DNA of 64,000 bases, taken from assembly GCF_001427635.1 (NCBI RefSeq), contig NZ_LMHA01000001.1, positions 1,469,414-1,533,413 of the forward strand. The letters are read 5' to 3'. The notes beneath the pieces were generated by a model. It had not been told where the DNA came from, made no database searches, and saw nothing but the letters and a program-made list of their open reading frames with translations. This stretch comes from Pseudoxanthomonas sp. Root65 (lineage in GTDB: Bacteria > Pseudomonadota > Gammaproteobacteria > Xanthomonadales > Xanthomonadaceae). Both the position numbers and the translations under genes were made by a program. Shown here in pieces: positions 56,842 through 64,000 of this stretch (the stretch's first letter is position 1; each line of letters opens with the position of its first letter).

Positions 56842-58785
<1,944 letters not shown>

Positions 58786-58901: not shown

Positions 58902-59570
58902 ATGCCCACCCTGCTGATCGCCGACGACCATCCGCTGTTCCGCGAAGCGCTTCGCGGTGCGGTGCAGCGCGTGATGCCCGGCGTGAAGCTGCACGAGGCC
59001 GACAGCGTCGACGCGCTGTACGTGCTGGTCGATGCGCATCCGGATGCGGACCTGCTGCTGATGGATCTCAACATGCCGGGCGCGCACGGTTTCAATGCGC
59101 TGGTACACTTGCGCGCCCTGCATCCGCAGCTGCCCGTGGTCATCGTGTCGGCGCGCGAAGAGCCGGCGGTGATGCGCCGCGCGCTGGACCACGGCGCGCT
59201 CGGTTTCATTCCCAAGTCCGCCGACTCGGACACCATCGGCCAGGCCATCGGTGCCGTGCTCGACGGTGAGCGCTGGGTACCGGACGAGGCGCACAACGCA
59301 CCGGTCACCAGCCGCGACGAGCAGGAAACCGCGCAGCGCCTGCGCGACCTCACGCCACAACAGTTCAAGGTGCTGCAGATGCTTGGCGCCGGCAGGCTCA
59401 ACAAGCAGATCGCCTACGACCTGGGCGTGTCCGAAGCCACCATCAAGGCCCACGTCACTGCCATCCTGCGCAAGCTGCACGTCACCAACCGCACCCAGGC
59501 GGTGCTGGCTGCCGGCCGCCTTGCGGTGGATCCGGACGGCATCGTGCTGCCGCCCGAAGAAGCGGAGTAA
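58902..59570 (+). CDS. LuxR/NarL-type response regulator, CrbR/ErdR-like
   Basis: A 222-residue two-component regulator. The receiver domain has the DD pair (IADDHPLF), the phosphoryl-acceptor Asp55 in LLMDLNMPG and conserved Lys105 in GFIPKS. The C-terminal LuxR HTH reads LTPQQFKVLQMLGAGRLNKQIAYDLGVSEATIKAHVTAIL. Regulators of this type next to acs (CrbR, ErdR) control acetate use in Vibrio and Pseudomonas, so it probably governs acs and perhaps the porin/transporter pair. The cognate kinase is not in the window. Confidence 0.87.
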   Translation: MPTLLIADDHPLFREALRGAVQRVMPGVKLHEADSVDALYVLVDAHPDADLLLMDLNMPGAHGFNALVHLRALHPQLPVVIVSAREEPAVMRRALDHGALGFIPKSADSDTIGQAIGAVLDGERWVPDEAHNAPVTSRDEQETAQRLRDLTPQQFKVLQMLGAGRLNKQIAYDLGVSEATIKAHVTAILRKLHVTNRTQAVLAAGRLAVDPDGIVLPPEEAE

Positions 59571-59589: not shown

Positions 59590-60045
59590 TCAGGGACGTG
59601 GCGCGCGCGTCCAGCCGACCACGATGTTCAGGTGACCAGGTTCGCGCTTGAGACGGAACGGACGTGCTTCCACGATGACGTCGCGGATCGCAAAGCCGAA
59701 CGCCAGCACGCCAGCGGTCAATCCGCCCGCAAGCAGCGGATTTAGCGGTACCGCAGCGCCGATCGGACTACCCAGCAGCGCCAGTCCCGCCACCACGCCC
59801 GCCACACCCACCGTCGACTCGGCGCACAGGCACAACGCAGTCCGCGTGGGTCCGCCCGTGCCCCGCTTGCGGTGTTGCGACAGCAGCCAGAGATCGCGCA
59901 CCAGTCCTTGCAGCAGGAGCAGGCAGGACGCCACCAGCAACAACGCGCCGATGCTCGCGGAGGTCGGCAAGCGGTCGCCCAGCAGGCCCACCACGGCGCC
60001 AAGCACCGGCACCAGCGCAAGTTCCACCTGCTCCGCTCGGGTCAT
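59590..60045 (-). CDS. Small membrane protein of unknown function
   Basis: A 151-residue protein with four hydrophobic segments (about residues 9-24, 32-52, 75-95 and 102-120) and a conserved-looking tail DVIVEARPFRLKREPGHLNIVVGW. It converges on the response regulator. Codon use is like the high-G+C backbone, unlike the cassettes to the right. No family recognised. Confidence 0.65.
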   Translation of the reverse strand: MTRAEQVELALVPVLGAVVGLLGDRLPTSASIGALLLVASCLLLLQGLVRDLWLLSQHRKRGTGGPTRTALCLCAESTVGVAGVVAGLALLGSPIGAAVPLNPLLAGGLTAGVLAFGFAIRDVIVEARPFRLKREPGHLNIVVGWTRAPRP

Positions 60046-60247
60046 CCAGGCGTCTCCTTCTTCGTGGTCGTGCGGGTCATACGGACCGGACGGTGCGTTG
60101 GATCACGGCGCGACCGCCCCGGCCCGGCACTCTGCCGTGCGGCGCCTGCGGTTCCCCGCAGACGGCGCGGTCATCGCCATGGGTGATCGCGTCCGGATGT
60201 CTGCGACAGGCTGGCCGGTTCCGAATCGGGCCAATCCGAGAGGCGGC
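60046..60247. other. Junction between chromosome backbone and cassette array
   Basis: About 200 high-G+C bases with no convincing gene. A small hairpin CTGCGGTTCCCCGCAG lies near 60147-60162. This should be the upstream region of the leftward membrane-protein gene, and its right end merges with the degenerate terminal attC. Confidence 0.45.
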
Positions 60248-60273
60248 GTCTGCTTGAGCTCTATTTTTTAGGC
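60248..60273 (-). repeat. Degenerate terminal attC remnant
   Basis: Reading leftward, GCCTAAA replaces the R'' core and AGCTCAAGCAGAC matches the adjacent attC arm, after which similarity is lost. This marks the decayed outer end of the array. Confidence 0.55.
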
Positions 60274-60735
60274 ATCATTGCCTGATGCCAGCGGGAACAG
60301 CTGGAAGTAGAAGCCAGCGTGCTCCCATGATGGGTCGTGCTTCATATGAAACTCCCAAAACCGCCTCTGCTCTTTGGCTAGCAATTCTTGAAGAATCTTG
60401 TCGGCCGCGTCCGGATCATAAACCCGGTATGCGAGCTCTCGAAAGCCGTTCCAAGTGCTGCGGGCCAAGAACAAGGCGTTGTAGCCCAGTATGGCTCGCT
60501 CAATCTCGTCGCCAATTTCAAATAGAAGCTTGCTCTCGTCTGGGCTAGGCATGCCTTGATCAGCGAGATCAACGGCATGCAGCGTCACCTCAAGATGCCA
60601 CGCAAAGATGTCCGTGTGTTCAAACGCCAGCAGTGCGTCGTTGACAACGACTACTTCCGGAAGACTGTCGCGTTCACCATTGAATAAGGTGTAGTGCGGA
60701 TCTGGCAACACGATGGTTACGGAATCTTCCGACAT
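60268..60735 (-). CDS. Integron cassette protein of unknown function
   Basis: A 155-residue soluble, acidic protein, the last cassette of the array. No signal peptide or membrane helix. A Trp/Phe-rich C-terminal part (RRFWEFHMKHDPSWEHAGFYF) suggests a folded domain. Its TAA stop is formed by the GCCTAA of the terminal attC remnant, as in many cassettes. Its ATG is only three bases from the attC to its right. I recognise no family. Confidence 0.7.
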   Translation of the reverse strand: MSEDSVTIVLPDPHYTLFNGERDSLPEVVVVNDALLAFEHTDIFAWHLEVTLHAVDLADQGMPSPDESKLLFEIGDEIERAILGYNALFLARSTWNGFRELAYRVYDPDAADKILQELLAKEQRRFWEFHMKHDPSWEHAGFYFQLFPLASGNDA

Positions 60736-60738
60736 GAT

Positions 60739-60797
60739 GCTTAGCGCCTGAATAATCCTCGCCGCGAAGCGACTTCGGCTTGAGTGAAATTATCGGC
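60739..60797 (-). repeat. attC site 1, degenerate
   Basis: The central stem CGCCGCGAAGCGAC and GGCTTGAGTGAA match the array consensus, but the outer cores have drifted: GCTTAGC on the left and TATCGGC on the right instead of GCCTAAC and GTTAGGC. Recombination here is probably impaired. Confidence 0.75.
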
Positions 60798-60840
60798 CCG
60801 ACCGCGTTTCCATGGGTGGTGGGCCAATCACCAGTCTGCA

Positions 60841-61047
60841 CTATCTGCGCCTGTTCGAGAGGATCCTGCCCAGGATGTACAGCAAAGCTCCCGTCACGCC
60901 CAAACCAGCGACAAGAAAGCTCCTGATCTCGTCGCTGGGTGAAGGGTCCTTGGCAAGTCCGGTCAGAAAAAGGAGTGTTGCTACCGCAACGAGTGCGAAC
61001 CCAGCTTTGCAGAACGCGTGGAGTGAATCGCCGGAGGAAATGTTCAT
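60841..61047 (-). CDS. Small integron cassette membrane protein
   Basis: A 68-residue protein starting at ATG 61045-61047 (MNISSGDS). Two hydrophobic segments, at about 13-30 and 43-61 (AGFALVAVATLLFLTGLA and FLVAGLGVTGALLYILG), end in a basic NRRR tail. GGACGACCAGAAAAA precedes it without a strong Shine-Dalgarno. The open frame continues upstream through the attC, giving attC-encoded sequence, so the shorter start is preferred. Function unknown. Confidence 0.65.
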   Translation of the reverse strand: MNISSGDSLHAFCKAGFALVAVATLLFLTGLAKDPSPSDEIRSFLVAGLGVTGALLYILGRILSNRRR

Positions 61048-61079
61048 TTTTTCTGGTCGTCCATGAAATTGAATGAGCG

Positions 61080-61139
61080 CCCCGCCACTTGCGTCGAGTC
61101 GACCCGCAAAGCGGGTTTGGCTTGAATGAATTGTTAGGC
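61080..61139 (-). repeat. attC site 2, one core degenerate
   Basis: The right core is GTTAGGC (61133-61139) and the central stem GACCCGCAAAGCGGGT is intact. The left end reads CCCCGCC where GCCTAAC is expected, so the recombination core facing the 60841 gene has been lost. Confidence 0.8.
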
Positions 61140-61385
61140 CGCTCGCCCGGAGCAAAGCTGACCGATGGGATATGAAACCCTGCAGTGCCGACACTCATAG
61201 GAAACCGTCGCTTTTGTTTTGTGGCCGTAGTCAAAGTCCAGGCCGTCCTGACGCCAACCGAACCCCTCGTTACGCGTAGCAATCTGACGCTCAAGCGGAC
61301 CAGAACACTTTGGGCAGAGCTTCTTGGCGAAGAGGAAGTAGCAAGTCTCTCGCCAAGTCATGGACATATCGAACTCAAACACCAC
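61134..61385 (-). CDS. Integron cassette zinc-ribbon-like protein
   Basis: An 83-residue soluble protein with two CxxC knuckles 34 residues apart: CPKC (near residue 24) and CRHC (near 65), enough to bind one zinc ion. No signal peptide or membrane helix. The stop TAA lies in the attC core (GCGGCCTAAC). Small zinc ribbons of this kind often bind nucleic acids or proteins; no family recognised. Confidence 0.7.
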   Translation of the reverse strand: MVFEFDMSMTWRETCYFLFAKKLCPKCSGPLERQIATRNEGFGWRQDGLDFDYGHKTKATVSYECRHCRVSYPIGQLCSGRAA

Positions 61386-61401
61386 GCCAAATCCCCTAGC
61401 G

Positions 61402-61461
61402 GCCTAACACCTGAGTTAAGCCGCGCCGCGAAGCGGCGTCGGCTTAAACTAATTGCTAGGC
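61402..61461 (-). repeat. attC site 3
   Basis: Cores GCCTAAC (61402-61408) and GCTAGGC (61455-61461) flank a stem with CCGCGCCGCGAAGCGGCG, a compensated variant of the array consensus. The CTAG in the right core supplies the stop of the gene at 61456. Confidence 0.88.
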
Positions 61462-61764
61462 CCCGTGCCAACGATCTTTAATGGTGATGGCAGTGCAAAC
61501 CAGAAGGGAGAGGAGCGTGGATCCGCCAGTTGCGCACAAGAAGAACAGGACAAACTCACCCTCATACCCCTCACGCATGACCCAAATCTGAGTGAAAAAA
61601 TCGACATATGCAATAAGAAGCCCCAGGAATGAAAGCAGGCCCATACCACCTAGAGCTGAGGCAGAATTGTGAAGAAAAGTGTACTTGCCATCTCCGATGT
61701 AGATTGCCCATGCGTTGATGGCAAGCACAAGCAGAACAATCAGAGCGAGGAGTGCGAGAGCCAT
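61456..61764 (-). CDS. Integron cassette membrane protein
   Basis: A 102-residue integral membrane protein. Three hydrophobic segments at about 2-22, 36-60 and 72-92 (ALALLALIVLLVLAINAW, GGMGLLSFLGLLIAYV, FVLFFLCATGGSTLLSLLVC). GGAGGAAG at suitable spacing decides ATG 61762-61764 over an upstream frame. The TAG stop lies in the attC core. No family recognised. Confidence 0.72.
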   Translation of the reverse strand: MALALLALIVLLVLAINAWAIYIGDGKYTFLHNSASALGGMGLLSFLGLLIAYVDFFTQIWVMREGYEGEFVLFFLCATGGSTLLSLLVCTAITIKDRWHGA

Positions 61765-61782
61765 CAGCTTGCTTCCTCCGGG

Positions 61783-61842
61783 GCCTAGCACCGGAATTAA
61801 GCCGACCCGCGAAGCGGGTTCGGCTTGAATGAATTATTAGGT
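61783..61842 (-). repeat. attC site 4
   Basis: Cores GCCTAGC (61783-61789) and ATTAGGT (61836-61842) with the consensus stem GACCCGCGAAGCGGGTTCGG between. The variant cores still fit the loose RYYYAAC/GTTRRRY pattern in part. Confidence 0.88.
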
Positions 61843-61844
61843 GG

Positions 61845-62279
61845 CTATTTGAGGGAGCGCAGAGCCGCCAACTCCGTTGAGTCTGGGGACCAAATATCGG
61901 AATCGCAATTTCCGATTTGAACATCACCAAGCGTCTTTGCAACGACTAGTACATTGTCTCCTGGCACTAACTTGACAAGGGGCATGTGATGCACAACATC
62001 AACGTCGTAGGTGTTGTAAAGATGCTTGGTGTAAAGCGCCAGCACTGTCTTAGGGTCGCCGCGAAATACTTCACGCACAATGTATCGGTAGGACAGTCGA
62101 TATGTGTCGCCCGTTACCAACGATGCGTCCGGCGGGAGGTCGCCAACGCCGGTGATGGTCGCAATAAAGACAGTGCTTGCACCTTGGTACGGGCTCTTGG
62201 ATGGATCTCCAATGCATGAGTTTGCTCTGGCTATCTGGGATGCGAGCAATAAGATCATCAGGACAAGCGAATGTTTCAT
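61845..62279 (-). CDS. Integron cassette exported protein, possibly NTR/TIMP-like
   Basis: A 144-residue exported protein. A signal peptide (about residues 1-20, ending ARA) puts Cys22 (NSCIGD) near the mature N-terminus, and a second Cys lies in GNCDSD near residue 125. The pattern VFIATITGV...YRYIVREVFRGDPKTVLALYT...PGDNVLVVAKTL resembles bacterial NTR (tissue-inhibitor-of-metalloproteinase-like) domains. ATG at 62277-62279 is used; a GTG inside the attC at 62285 would add two residues. Function unknown. Confidence 0.68.
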   Translation of the reverse strand: MKHSLVLMILLLASQIARANSCIGDPSKSPYQGASTVFIATITGVGDLPPDASLVTGDTYRLSYRYIVREVFRGDPKTVLALYTKHLYNTYDVDVVHHMPLVKLVPGDNVLVVAKTLGDVQIGNCDSDIWSPDSTELAALRSLK

Positions 62280-62283
62280 AGCC

Positions 62284-62343
62284 ACCTAACACCAGAATTA
62301 AGCCGACTCGCGAAGCGGGTTCGGCTTGAATGAATTGTTAGGC
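62284..62343 (-). repeat. attC site 5
   Basis: Cores ACCTAAC (62284-62290) and GTTAGGC (62337-62343), stem GACTCGCGAAGCGGGTTCGG. The gene at 62298-62795 reads through this site before stopping. Confidence 0.9.
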
Positions 62344-62795
62344 CCCGCCTCCCGCGTGGCCGGACCCAGCCTAATACGAATTCGAAATGCCGGGTCTCGA
62401 GCAAGCTCTTGCATCTCCGGTGACGCAGCCGAATCTTCCGTCGCAAGTAATCGACGTACATCTATGCCGTCAAAGATAGTTACCACAAGCCCTTCTGGAA
62501 CAACGTCAATCAAAATCTTTTCCTCGAAGACGGCGAGGTCAATTCCGCTTGTGCGATCCACTAGTTCTTGAATGTCTTTTGGCCAGCGCCCATACAAGCC
62601 ATGGAAGACACGGCAGGCCGCTGACACTTTAGTGGCTTCATCTAGAATCTTGATCTGCTTTTCAGTTAACTCGAACTGCGAGTAGCGATTCACAGTAGCC
62701 GTTACTTCAATTCCTGGCTCGGTCGCGCCGTATGAGATCGCAGGCAGGAGGAGTAACGCCAGTATTGTTATCTGTAATCTCACGAGGCTCTCCAT
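62298..62795 (-). CDS. Integron cassette exported protein with attC-encoded tail
   Basis: A 165-residue protein with a signal peptide (ILALLLLPAISYGA) and a mature, mostly helical domain including SAACRVFHGLYGRWPKDIQELVD. The reading frame enters attC site 5, and the last 14 residues or so (NNSFKPNPLRESA) are encoded by the recombination site itself. Such NNSFKPNPLR endings I associate with xanthomonad cassette proteins, and they could be added to any gene inserted in that frame. ATG 62793-62795 lies a few bases from the next attC. Function unknown. Confidence 0.7.
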   Translation of the reverse strand: MESLVRLQITILALLLLPAISYGATEPGIEVTATVNRYSQFELTEKQIKILDEATKVSAACRVFHGLYGRWPKDIQELVDRTSGIDLAVFEEKILIDVVPEGLVVTIFDGIDVRRLLATEDSAASPEMQELARDPAFRIRIRLGPATREAGPNNSFKPNPLRESA

Positions 62796-62799
62796 AGAG

Positions 62800-62859
62800 G
62801 CCTAACACCGGAATTAAGCCGACCCGCGAAGCGGGTTCGGCTTGAATGAATTGTTACGC
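62800..62859 (-). repeat. attC site 6
   Basis: Cores GCCTAAC (62800-62806) and GTTACGC (62853-62859) around the consensus stem. The variant right core has C in place of G. Confidence 0.9.
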
Positions 62860-62893
62860 CGCAGCCGGTTACAGCAAACGCCCGGTACATTAC

Positions 62894-63127
62894 TCAAGAA
62901 GCCCAGCATGTGCTCTCCGGAAGGCTGCCATCACGAAAGTGTCGCGCAACCTTAATTGCAGCGCGGTTGAAGAAGGCGTCCCGAGAGGGCTTGGTCATCT
63001 CGATAGCTTCGGTAACTTTGTTTAAGCGCAGCTCCCCCACCTCATCTGGGTAGGCGGTGTCATAGAAGCGAAAGAACGCCTCTCTCTCCGTCTCCGAGAT
63101 CTTGTCGATCAGAATGTAGAACGCCAA
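62894..63127 (-). CDS. Small integron cassette protein of unknown function
   Basis: A 77-residue soluble, charged protein (FYILIDKISETEREAFFRFYDTAYPDEVGELRLNK...). It probably starts at TTG 63125-63127, since GGGGAGAGG lies at good spacing and no ATG is nearby. The short gap to attC site 6 and the same orientation mark it as a separate cassette. No family recognised. Confidence 0.62.
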   Translation of the reverse strand: MAFYILIDKISETEREAFFRFYDTAYPDEVGELRLNKVTEAIEMTKPSRDAFFNRAAIKVARHFRDGSLPESTCWAS

Positions 63128-63144
63128 GTCGCCTCTCCCCTGCG

Positions 63145-63204
63145 GCCTAACACCGGAACTAAGCCGACCCGCGAAGCGGGTTCGGCTTGAATTAATTGTT
63201 AGGC
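63145..63204 (-). repeat. attC site 7
   Basis: Cores GCCTAAC (63145-63151) and GTTAGGC (63198-63204), consensus stem GACCCGCGAAGCGGGTTCGG. Confidence 0.92.
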
Positions 63205-63205
63205 C

Positions 63206-63544
63206 TCATGCCCGGAGATCCTCAGAGCCAGAGCGTGGACCGTCGCCAAGAACTAGGGGCACAATCGCCTTTGTTTCATCGGAGAACATAACCACCCAAG
63301 TAAAGTCAGGATTCTCCTTAGCCCAGAAGCTGTCCAGGTAGGCTAGCAGCATATTCTGGAGTGACAGAACGTCGTCGTCTCGAGCATCAGAAGCAATGGT
63401 CAGGGTTATGCCAAGCTCATTGAAGTAGCCCGCGAAATGATCCGAGGCGGAAGTGACGAACGGCCACTGCATGGCGATCGCCCGCACGCCTGCGACAACA
63501 CGATCTGCTAGCGCGGAATCTGGAAGTCCCTTTTGCTTGCTCAT
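63206..63544 (-). CDS. Integron cassette protein of unknown function
   Basis: A 112-residue soluble protein starting at ATG 63542-63544 (MSKQKGLPDS); GTG just upstream lies in the attC. Mixed alpha/beta pattern with ELGITLTIASDARDDDVLSLQNMLLAYL and a strand pair FTWVVMF...AIVPLVLGD. The stop is one base beyond attC site 7. No family recognised. Confidence 0.68.
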   Translation of the reverse strand: MSKQKGLPDSALADRVVAGVRAIAMQWPFVTSASDHFAGYFNELGITLTIASDARDDDVLSLQNMLLAYLDSFWAKENPDFTWVVMFSDETKAIVPLVLGDGPRSGSEDLRA

Positions 63545-63547
63545 GAG

Positions 63548-63607
63548 GCCTAACACCAGAATTAAGCCGACCCGCGAAGCGGGTTCGGCTTGAATGAATT
63601 GTTAGGC
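63548..63607 (-). repeat. attC site 8
   Basis: Cores GCCTAAC (63548-63554) and GTTAGGC (63601-63607), consensus stem GACCCGCGAAGCGGGTTCGG. Confidence 0.92.
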
Positions 63608-63886
63608 CGCAACCGACAAAACGCGACCTATCCCTTTGTTGCCATTCTCCCAGACTGTGAAATCAGAACCCACAGAAAAGTACTTAAGTGCATCTGGAAC
63701 TAGTAGCTGCACCGTGGCATAAAAGGTATCGCCGGGTCCAGGACTGTCCGCAAAAGTAAGGCGGGCTGACCAGTGCTCGTTGCCGATGCCAAGAATGGTG
63801 CGCCATTCACCAGATGCCAACGGAGTTGATCGACTGCCGGTCTCAATCGGTAGAAGATGGATCTCGGCAACAAAGTGAGCTTTCAT
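63602..63886 (-). CDS. Integron cassette protein resembling EF-Tu domain 3
   Basis: A 94-residue beta-rich protein. KAHFVAEIHLLPIETGSRSTPLASGEWRTIL, PGDTFYATVQLL and FTVWENGNKGIGRVL follow the strand order of the C-terminal barrel of elongation factor Tu (domain 3: EGGR...PGD...REGGxTVGxGxV) in a free-standing form, without GTPase or domain 2. The stop TAA is within the attC core. The resemblance is by pattern only. Role unknown. Confidence 0.65.
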   Translation of the reverse strand: MKAHFVAEIHLLPIETGSRSTPLASGEWRTILGIGNEHWSARLTFADSPGPGDTFYATVQLLVPDALKYFSVGSDFTVWENGNKGIGRVLSVAA

Positions 63887-63890
63887 TGCG

Positions 63891-63950
63891 GCCTAACACC
63901 AGAATTAAGCCGACCCGCGAAGCGGGTTCGGCTTGAATGAATTGTTAGGT
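63891..63950 (-). repeat. attC site 9
   Basis: Cores GCCTAAC (63891-63897) and GTTAGGT (63944-63950), consensus stem GACCCGCGAAGCGGGTTCGG. The most rightward complete site in the window. Confidence 0.92.
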
Positions 63951-64000
63951 TGCAACGCCGCCAAGCCTGCGCGCAACCGCTAGAACAATGATGGAGACAA
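63945..64000 (-). CDS. Partial cassette gene, C-terminus only
   Basis: Read on the minus strand, the last bases of the window translate as VSIIVLAVARRLGGVAT followed by TAA inside attC site 9. The hydrophobic run suggests the end of a small membrane protein. The start lies outside the window; too short for more. Confidence 0.45.
   Translation of the reverse strand, partial: VSIIVLAVARRLGGVAT

Follow-up and report, generated by a model that had tools for sequence, protein, structure and literature searches.

The window analysed here, a 64,000-nucleotide stretch of the 3.9-Mb, six-contig genome of Pseudoxanthomonas sp. Root65 (G000:C1:1469414-1533413), ends inside an array of integron gene cassettes whose proximal end, beyond the window, carries a homologue of the integron site attI (here called attI') near the gene crbS. 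We consider it probable that this array is a secondary integron platform, left over from a complete integron and today supplied in trans by the integrase IntI encoded next to comEC elsewhere in the genome. Circular cassettes would be inserted by this IntI at attI' just as at the attI beside its own gene, and a predicted promoter within attI' would express the nearest cassette.

The sole full-length intI of the genome lies on contig C3 directly beside comEC, a DNA-uptake gene (L038:14027-17456), together with its own attI and 21 attC sites, and encodes an intact protein (473 bits to TIGR02249, cut-off 265). Since comEC flanks intI here and at 13 of 29 intI loci of relatives in the genus and beyond, ilvD is not the integron site in this genome; an earlier sequence-only reading of the window had indeed suspected a site other than ilvD for the array. 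Any link between DNA uptake and cassette capture by way of the comEC neighbourhood would be a guess. A BLAST search with the 101-nucleotide attI of this integron matched only itself, and we therefore used a sequence profile, R1, made from 16 intI-adjacent attI sites only, counting sites at E 0.01 or better. In the Root65 genome, R1 finds the intI-linked attI, attI' and two further sites at C1:1218985 and C1:1227706.

To the right of the window the array continues with four more attC sites within 2.2 kb (L037:6931, 7274, 7608 and 8100; 13 attC in all). Its first cassette is followed by the motif CCTAAC with about 70 nucleotides homologous to the attI of the intI-bearing integron, then by about 280 nucleotides and by crbS:

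L037:8569-8638 (window scale 66155-66224), attI', the attI-like site (R1 E 4.9e-16; alignment by eye)
L037:8916-12386, leftward, crbS

Of the attI and intI that the sequence-only reading had predicted to the right of the window, the first is thus present and the second is not: searches with a hidden Markov model (HMM) and with tblastn found no intI between attI' and crbS. The CrbS protein is 96% identical to CrbS of Pseudoxanthomonas sp. PXM01 and P. japonensis. Inside attI' and oriented toward the cassettes lies a single promoter-like pair, TTGACG-18-AATACT (one 9-of-12 match against 0.2 in shuffles), which may be a cassette promoter (Pc) or an IntI-binding element. Two other features of this stretch are probably assembly marks, namely a single N at L037:6415, just right of the window end, with a 99-nucleotide duplicate beside it, and, separate from the N, an exact 99-nucleotide tandem repeat at L037:6594-6791 in a cassette common to both arrays. 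An extra attC copy at L037:6409-6464, which comes after the N and repeats the preceding 99 nucleotides, was treated as a scaffold-join artefact.

The attI' site recurs at one place in several genomes. It lies downstream of crbS in 13 genomes, whose CrbS proteins are 91-97% identical, with attC beside it in 12 of them and only 85 nucleotides of flank in the thirteenth (a pattern scan of the crbS loci L050-L121 saw no attI or array). Mean pairwise identity among the 13 sites is 0.80 over the first 50 nucleotides and 0.59 over the next 22, and their flanks reach 0.50 further downstream and 0.46 on the cassette side, with shuffled sequence at 0.45; the attI' pad has therefore been kept, whereas the average likeness of the cassettes next to it does not exceed that of shuffled sequence. 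In the 11 genomes that have both sites, identity of attI' is 0.906 to the attI of its own genome and 0.851 to the attI of other genomes (permutation p 0.0006, a somewhat flattering value as G021 and G028 share one lineage-specific type).

Orphan attI sites, which adjoin no full intI, recur at other loci. Across 61 genomes, most of them drafts, R1 found 98 sites in 35 genomes: 27 beside intI, one sub-hit and 70 orphans, the latter in 34 genomes. The genus itself accounts for 85 sites in 31 of its 37 genomes, 25 of these 31 having at least two, and intI (E 1e-50) gives one match in 24 of the 37, two in one and none in 12. R1 matches in the flank stretches numbered 81 (79 of the 98 plus two weak sub-hits, G021 C23:946 and G028 C4:1799); dropping these two and the sub-hit G017 C4:1083894 left 78, eight beside full intI and the 70 orphans, and the other 19 of the 98 were counted beside intI as they adjoin intI matches. 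On the core (cassette) side, 60 of the 70 orphans have attC within 1.5 kb (median 403 nucleotides), a count that includes some rows of the attC model R2, introduced below, added by hand; five others have less than 400 nucleotides of flank and five have no attC within 1.5 kb. An attC site on the opposite side of attI was seen at one orphan. The GTCAA half of the promoter-like pair is present in 64 of the 70 orphans and in 15 of the 16 sites linked to intI, compared with 3% in shuffles; the counts are biased upward as the profile includes the motif. Next to 10 of the 70 orphans there are decayed intI pieces, each positioned as expected and pointing away from attI, which makes it likely that the orphan arrays descend from whole integrons.

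Near-identical cassettes occur in separate arrays of one genome in 4 of the 10 genomes with at least two arrays (Root65, G015, G008 and G011; about 98-100%), a comparison that for several genomes covers part of each array. Two cassettes are found in both Root65 arrays at 98%; one of them, the unit 63548-63897 of the window, is the first cassette beside attI and intI on C3. In G015, which is assembled as a single 4.2-Mb contig, the intI array holds copies of three crbS-array cassettes at 99-100% (attC masked); the two arrays are 1.5 Mb from each other, and the recurring pieces are attC-bounded single units with different neighbours; G008 and the one-contig G011 have cassettes common to their arrays at 98-100%. 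For G007 the array was pieced together across an overlap of 500 bases, and no count depends on this join. Cassette sharing of this kind fits a trans-acting IntI, but homologous recombination or a pool outside that is common to the arrays would account for it as well.

In the mechanism that we propose as the simplest, integron platforms would have been copied or moved to new loci and intI would have decayed at all of them but one, leaving attI and its promoter-like element in place as the remaining IntI could use this attI. An orphan attI would then be a landing pad equipped for capture and expression, with just the enzyme missing, and these bacteria would have a dispersed integron in which one enzyme serves several pads.

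The part of the array that lies in the window had been read as the distal end of an integron array. A family of repeats lies there at 60753, 61068, 61390, 61771, 62272, 62788, 63133, 63536 and 63879. A loose attC pattern scan gave mostly noise, and attC sites were instead scored throughout with R2, a covariance model built from 14 related sites in which 7 of 19 pairs changed on both sides (0 of 500 shuffles equal that). The repeats fit this model, which places nine attC sites in the window at 60743-60797 (E 0.015), 61080-61139 (E 5.5e-7) and seven further positions (E 9e-17 to 1e-20); folded as single-stranded DNA of the cassette strand, seven of the nine form the inner stem (z -3.4 to -6.8). 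Each unit holds one small gene, all in the same direction, and cassette-sized units recur elsewhere. The ten small leftward genes of lower G+C named by the sequence-only reading correspond to nine complete open reading frames (ORFs) and the 3' end of a tenth at 63945-64000, and G+C steps from 0.71 (59750-60249) to 0.53 (60250-60749) at about 60,250. Because R2 found no attC left of the distal cassette gene, we place the array end at about 60250. Gene stops fall inside the adjoining attC at five of the nine attC-bordered genes (61134, 61456, 62298, 63602 and 63945) and at most 3 nucleotides from it at two more (61845 and 63206), so that the claim that stops commonly lie in attC holds as well. 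Most cassette genes had been said to match no family, and among 14 array proteins scanned only that of the distal cassette, DUF695, is above its Pfam cut-off; Rfam at gathering thresholds has no match in the window. The features, in window coordinates, are:

56842..58785, plus strand, acs, acetate-CoA ligase, left flank (NCBIfam; synteny)
58902..59570, plus strand, response regulator resembling CrbR, left flank (best NCBIfam match ErdR, 241 bits, under its cut-off of 390; synteny with acs and crbS)
60268..60735, minus strand, distal cassette gene, DUF695 protein (ORF; Pfam DUF695 49 bits; G+C step)
60743..60797, minus strand, attC 1, decayed (R2 E 0.015; fold z 0.5)
60841..61047, minus strand, cassette gene, small membrane-like protein, read from an ATG inside the listed ORF (no Pfam match)
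61080..61139, minus strand, attC 2, partly decayed (R2 E 5.5e-7; fold z -2.2)
61134..61385, minus strand, cassette gene, cysteine-rich protein, no family above cut-off (ORF)
61402..61461, minus strand, attC 3 (R2 E 9.3e-17; z -5.5)
61456..61791, minus strand, cassette gene, no family (ORF)
61783..61842, minus strand, attC 4 (R2 E 7.3e-17; z -3.4)
61845..62285, minus strand, cassette gene, no family (ORF)
62284..62343, minus strand, attC 5 (R2 E 1.1e-18; z -4.5)
62298..62795, minus strand, cassette gene, no family (ORF)
62800..62859, minus strand, attC 6 (R2 E 3.5e-18; z -4.8)
62894..63127, minus strand, cassette gene, no family (ORF)
63145..63204, minus strand, attC 7 (R2 E 7.8e-19; z -5.9)
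63206..63556, minus strand, cassette gene, no family (ORF)
63548..63607, minus strand, attC 8 (R2 E 1.3e-20; z -6.5)
63602..63886, minus strand, cassette gene whose unit 63548-63897 is also found elsewhere in the genome (ORF; sequence comparison)
63891..63950, minus strand, attC 9 (R2 E 4.5e-20; z -6.8)
63945..64000, minus strand, cassette gene, 3' end only in the window (ORF)

Several observations weigh against a platform supplied in trans, and some of them would suit a dead relic instead, that is, an ordinary cluster of attC sites lacking integrases (CALIN) left by a degraded integron minus its intI, with attI an unused fossil. The two leftmost attC sites of the window form no clear stem (z 0.5 and -2.2) and are decayed, and among the genomes of the genus that lack a full intI, six retain orphan sites (G004, G016, G018, G020, G027 and G032); no resident full IntI can serve the pads there, which would be idle, unless intI is unassembled. 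The decayed intI at 10 of the 70 orphans likewise speaks for a relic, as does the proposal, cited in PMC9024848, that CALINs are degraded integrons. A fossil, however, is expected to decay like its flanks, and attI' keeps an identity of about 0.80 over 50 nucleotides against 0.46-0.50 beside it in the 13 genomes; it also tracks the attI of its genome and borders different cassettes, and seven of the nine window attC sites are well formed. We thus find a dead relic unlikely. Other points against supply in trans concern the crbS sites and the cassettes. No intI remnant was detected at any of the 13 crbS sites by HMM, or at E 1e-3 by tblastn on 81 crbS loci, and an origin of the crbS sites from a whole integron is therefore proposed only by analogy. 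The attI of the same genome is the best or tied match of attI' in only 5 of 11 genomes, with Root65 itself an exception. No common cassette was seen, in the parts of the arrays compared, in 6 of the 10 genomes with at least two arrays (G007, G017, G020, G023, G024 and G025), and 77 matches join arrays of different species, some at 98-99%, so that a common outside pool could explain some of the sharing.

Homologous recombination between arrays could have brought the cassettes in place of IntI, with gene conversion keeping attI' like attI. Both arrays contain attC sites as long repeats that are nearly identical, and in G021 and G028 the likeness of attI and attI' extends past the first 50 nucleotides, as such exchange would allow. 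The recurring G015 pieces, however, are single cassettes between attC cores whose neighbours differ, and only about 50-70 nucleotides of attI' are alike, which is short for efficient homologous recombination; this explanation seems improbable to us. Growth of the array from an insertion at a non-classical attG site, where IntI is known to insert cassettes (Loot et al. 2024, via PMC12901181), is very improbable given that the profile made from attI sites next to intI identifies the proximal junction as an attI homologue, which stands at the same place in 13 genomes. Just as hard to credit is an assembly chimera that misjoined array pieces of the real integron beside crbS, for despite the N with its 99-nucleotide repeat and the second such tandem repeat in a cassette common to both arrays, crbR lies downstream of and near crbS in 38 of 80 loci of relatives, so that the outer ends of the array must be true neighbours. 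In addition, attI' and crbS are on one side of the join, and the one contig of G015 carries both a crbS array and, at a distance of 1.5 Mb, an intI array.

The two other attI-like sites of Root65 are each followed by one cassette. At C1:1218985 (L241:8986; E 2.5e-7) there is one large cassette gene and then one weak attC; the gene (L241:8005-8982, minus strand) encodes a DUF3644 protein that matches the candidate defence family PDC-S19 at 454 bits, and a similar flank is found at orphan sites in G008, G024 and G026. The fourth attI-like site, C1:1227706 (L241:17707; E 5.5e-6), has a gene at about L241:16520-17689 (minus strand) whose protein matches the Mrr restriction endonuclease domain weakly, under the cut-off. 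Five more divergent attC sites cluster at C1:1330242-1332773 (L039) without an attI match. Pseudoxanthomonas sp. CF125 (G027/G072; L261-L266) has nine attI-like sites and no full intI in its genome; some of the sites lie close together on one contig, and three adjoin decayed intI.

Orphan attI architecture recurs beyond the genus, mostly with remains of intI. In 20 genomes (16 Xanthomonas, three Stenotrophomonas and [Pseudomonas] boreopolis), a profile from seven intI-adjacent attI (R3; six Xanthomonas and one Stenotrophomonas, some beside broken intI) found 25 sites, which are spread over 15 of the genomes. Among the 23 of these 25 loci examined, four adjoin full or frame-split intI; of the remaining 19, core-side attC sites are present at 14 and a decayed intI at 11, and several may be the main integron of their genome with a broken intI. 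For six of the 19, in G082, G083, G084 and G094, the genome has another intI of full or frame-split length. Xanthomonas bonasiae (G094) has three attI-like sites (C55:220745, C55:228677 and C89:93911; L350, L338 and L357), one beside intI, one 8 kb off with a decayed intI piece and the third on another contig with none found.

The array resembles the sedentary chromosomal integron of Xanthomonas in its attC sites, family-less cassettes, proximal attI homologue and cassettes reading away from attI. It differs in that no intI stands beside it, the intI of the genome lying elsewhere with its own attI, and in location, the Xanthomonas site being ilvD and intI in this genus being found beside comEC. 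The suggestion that the array might be a CALIN holds by definition, with at least two attC and no neighbouring intI, but misses the chief feature, namely that this array has retained an attI-like site of its own, promoter-like element included, as most related orphan arrays keep their attI. According to PMC12444791, CALINs occur away from ilvD in about half of the surveyed Xanthomonas genomes and can be mobilised in trans. According to PMC9024848, IntegronFinder 2.0 expects one attI near the integrase and does not detect attI outside class 1, so that orphan attI sites go unseen. A closer likeness is the displaced remnant of Xanthomonas fuscans 4834-R, for which PMC3826837 gives a truncated intI, attI and five cassettes away from ilvD, that is, an attI with an array at a secondary locus; there, however, intI is truncated but present in a single case ascribed to insertion-sequence rearrangement, whereas here many genomes show the pattern and intI is wholly gone at crbS. 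Insertions at attG sites and the delta-attI cassettes of mobile integrons (both from PMC12901181) also have IntI acting at unusual sites, but attI' belongs neither to the attG sites nor to a cassette, being a homologue of attI that occupies a fixed locus in the chromosome. In our literature search, which left most subscription papers outside, no publication came up that describes several conserved attI sites with a single integrase between them.

In the usual description an integron consists of a single enzyme, a single attI and a single array, with top expression beside one promoter. If an integrase had several attI-promoter pads, there would be several first positions, cassettes could be expressed in parallel and insertion points would be to spare. 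The counting of CALINs would change too, as standard software ignores attI outside class 1. The question of whether CALINs are relics or working parts supplied in trans is thereby made testable. We lean, with some reserve, toward the view that in the integron of Pseudoxanthomonas, and probably in that of Xanthomonas too, one integrase serves two to several chromosomal attI-promoter pads in trans, each with its array and all matched to the enzyme by selection or homogenisation. If this is true, many of the arrays that are classed as CALINs in this family would be no debris but live sites of cassette storage and expression, anchored by an attI.

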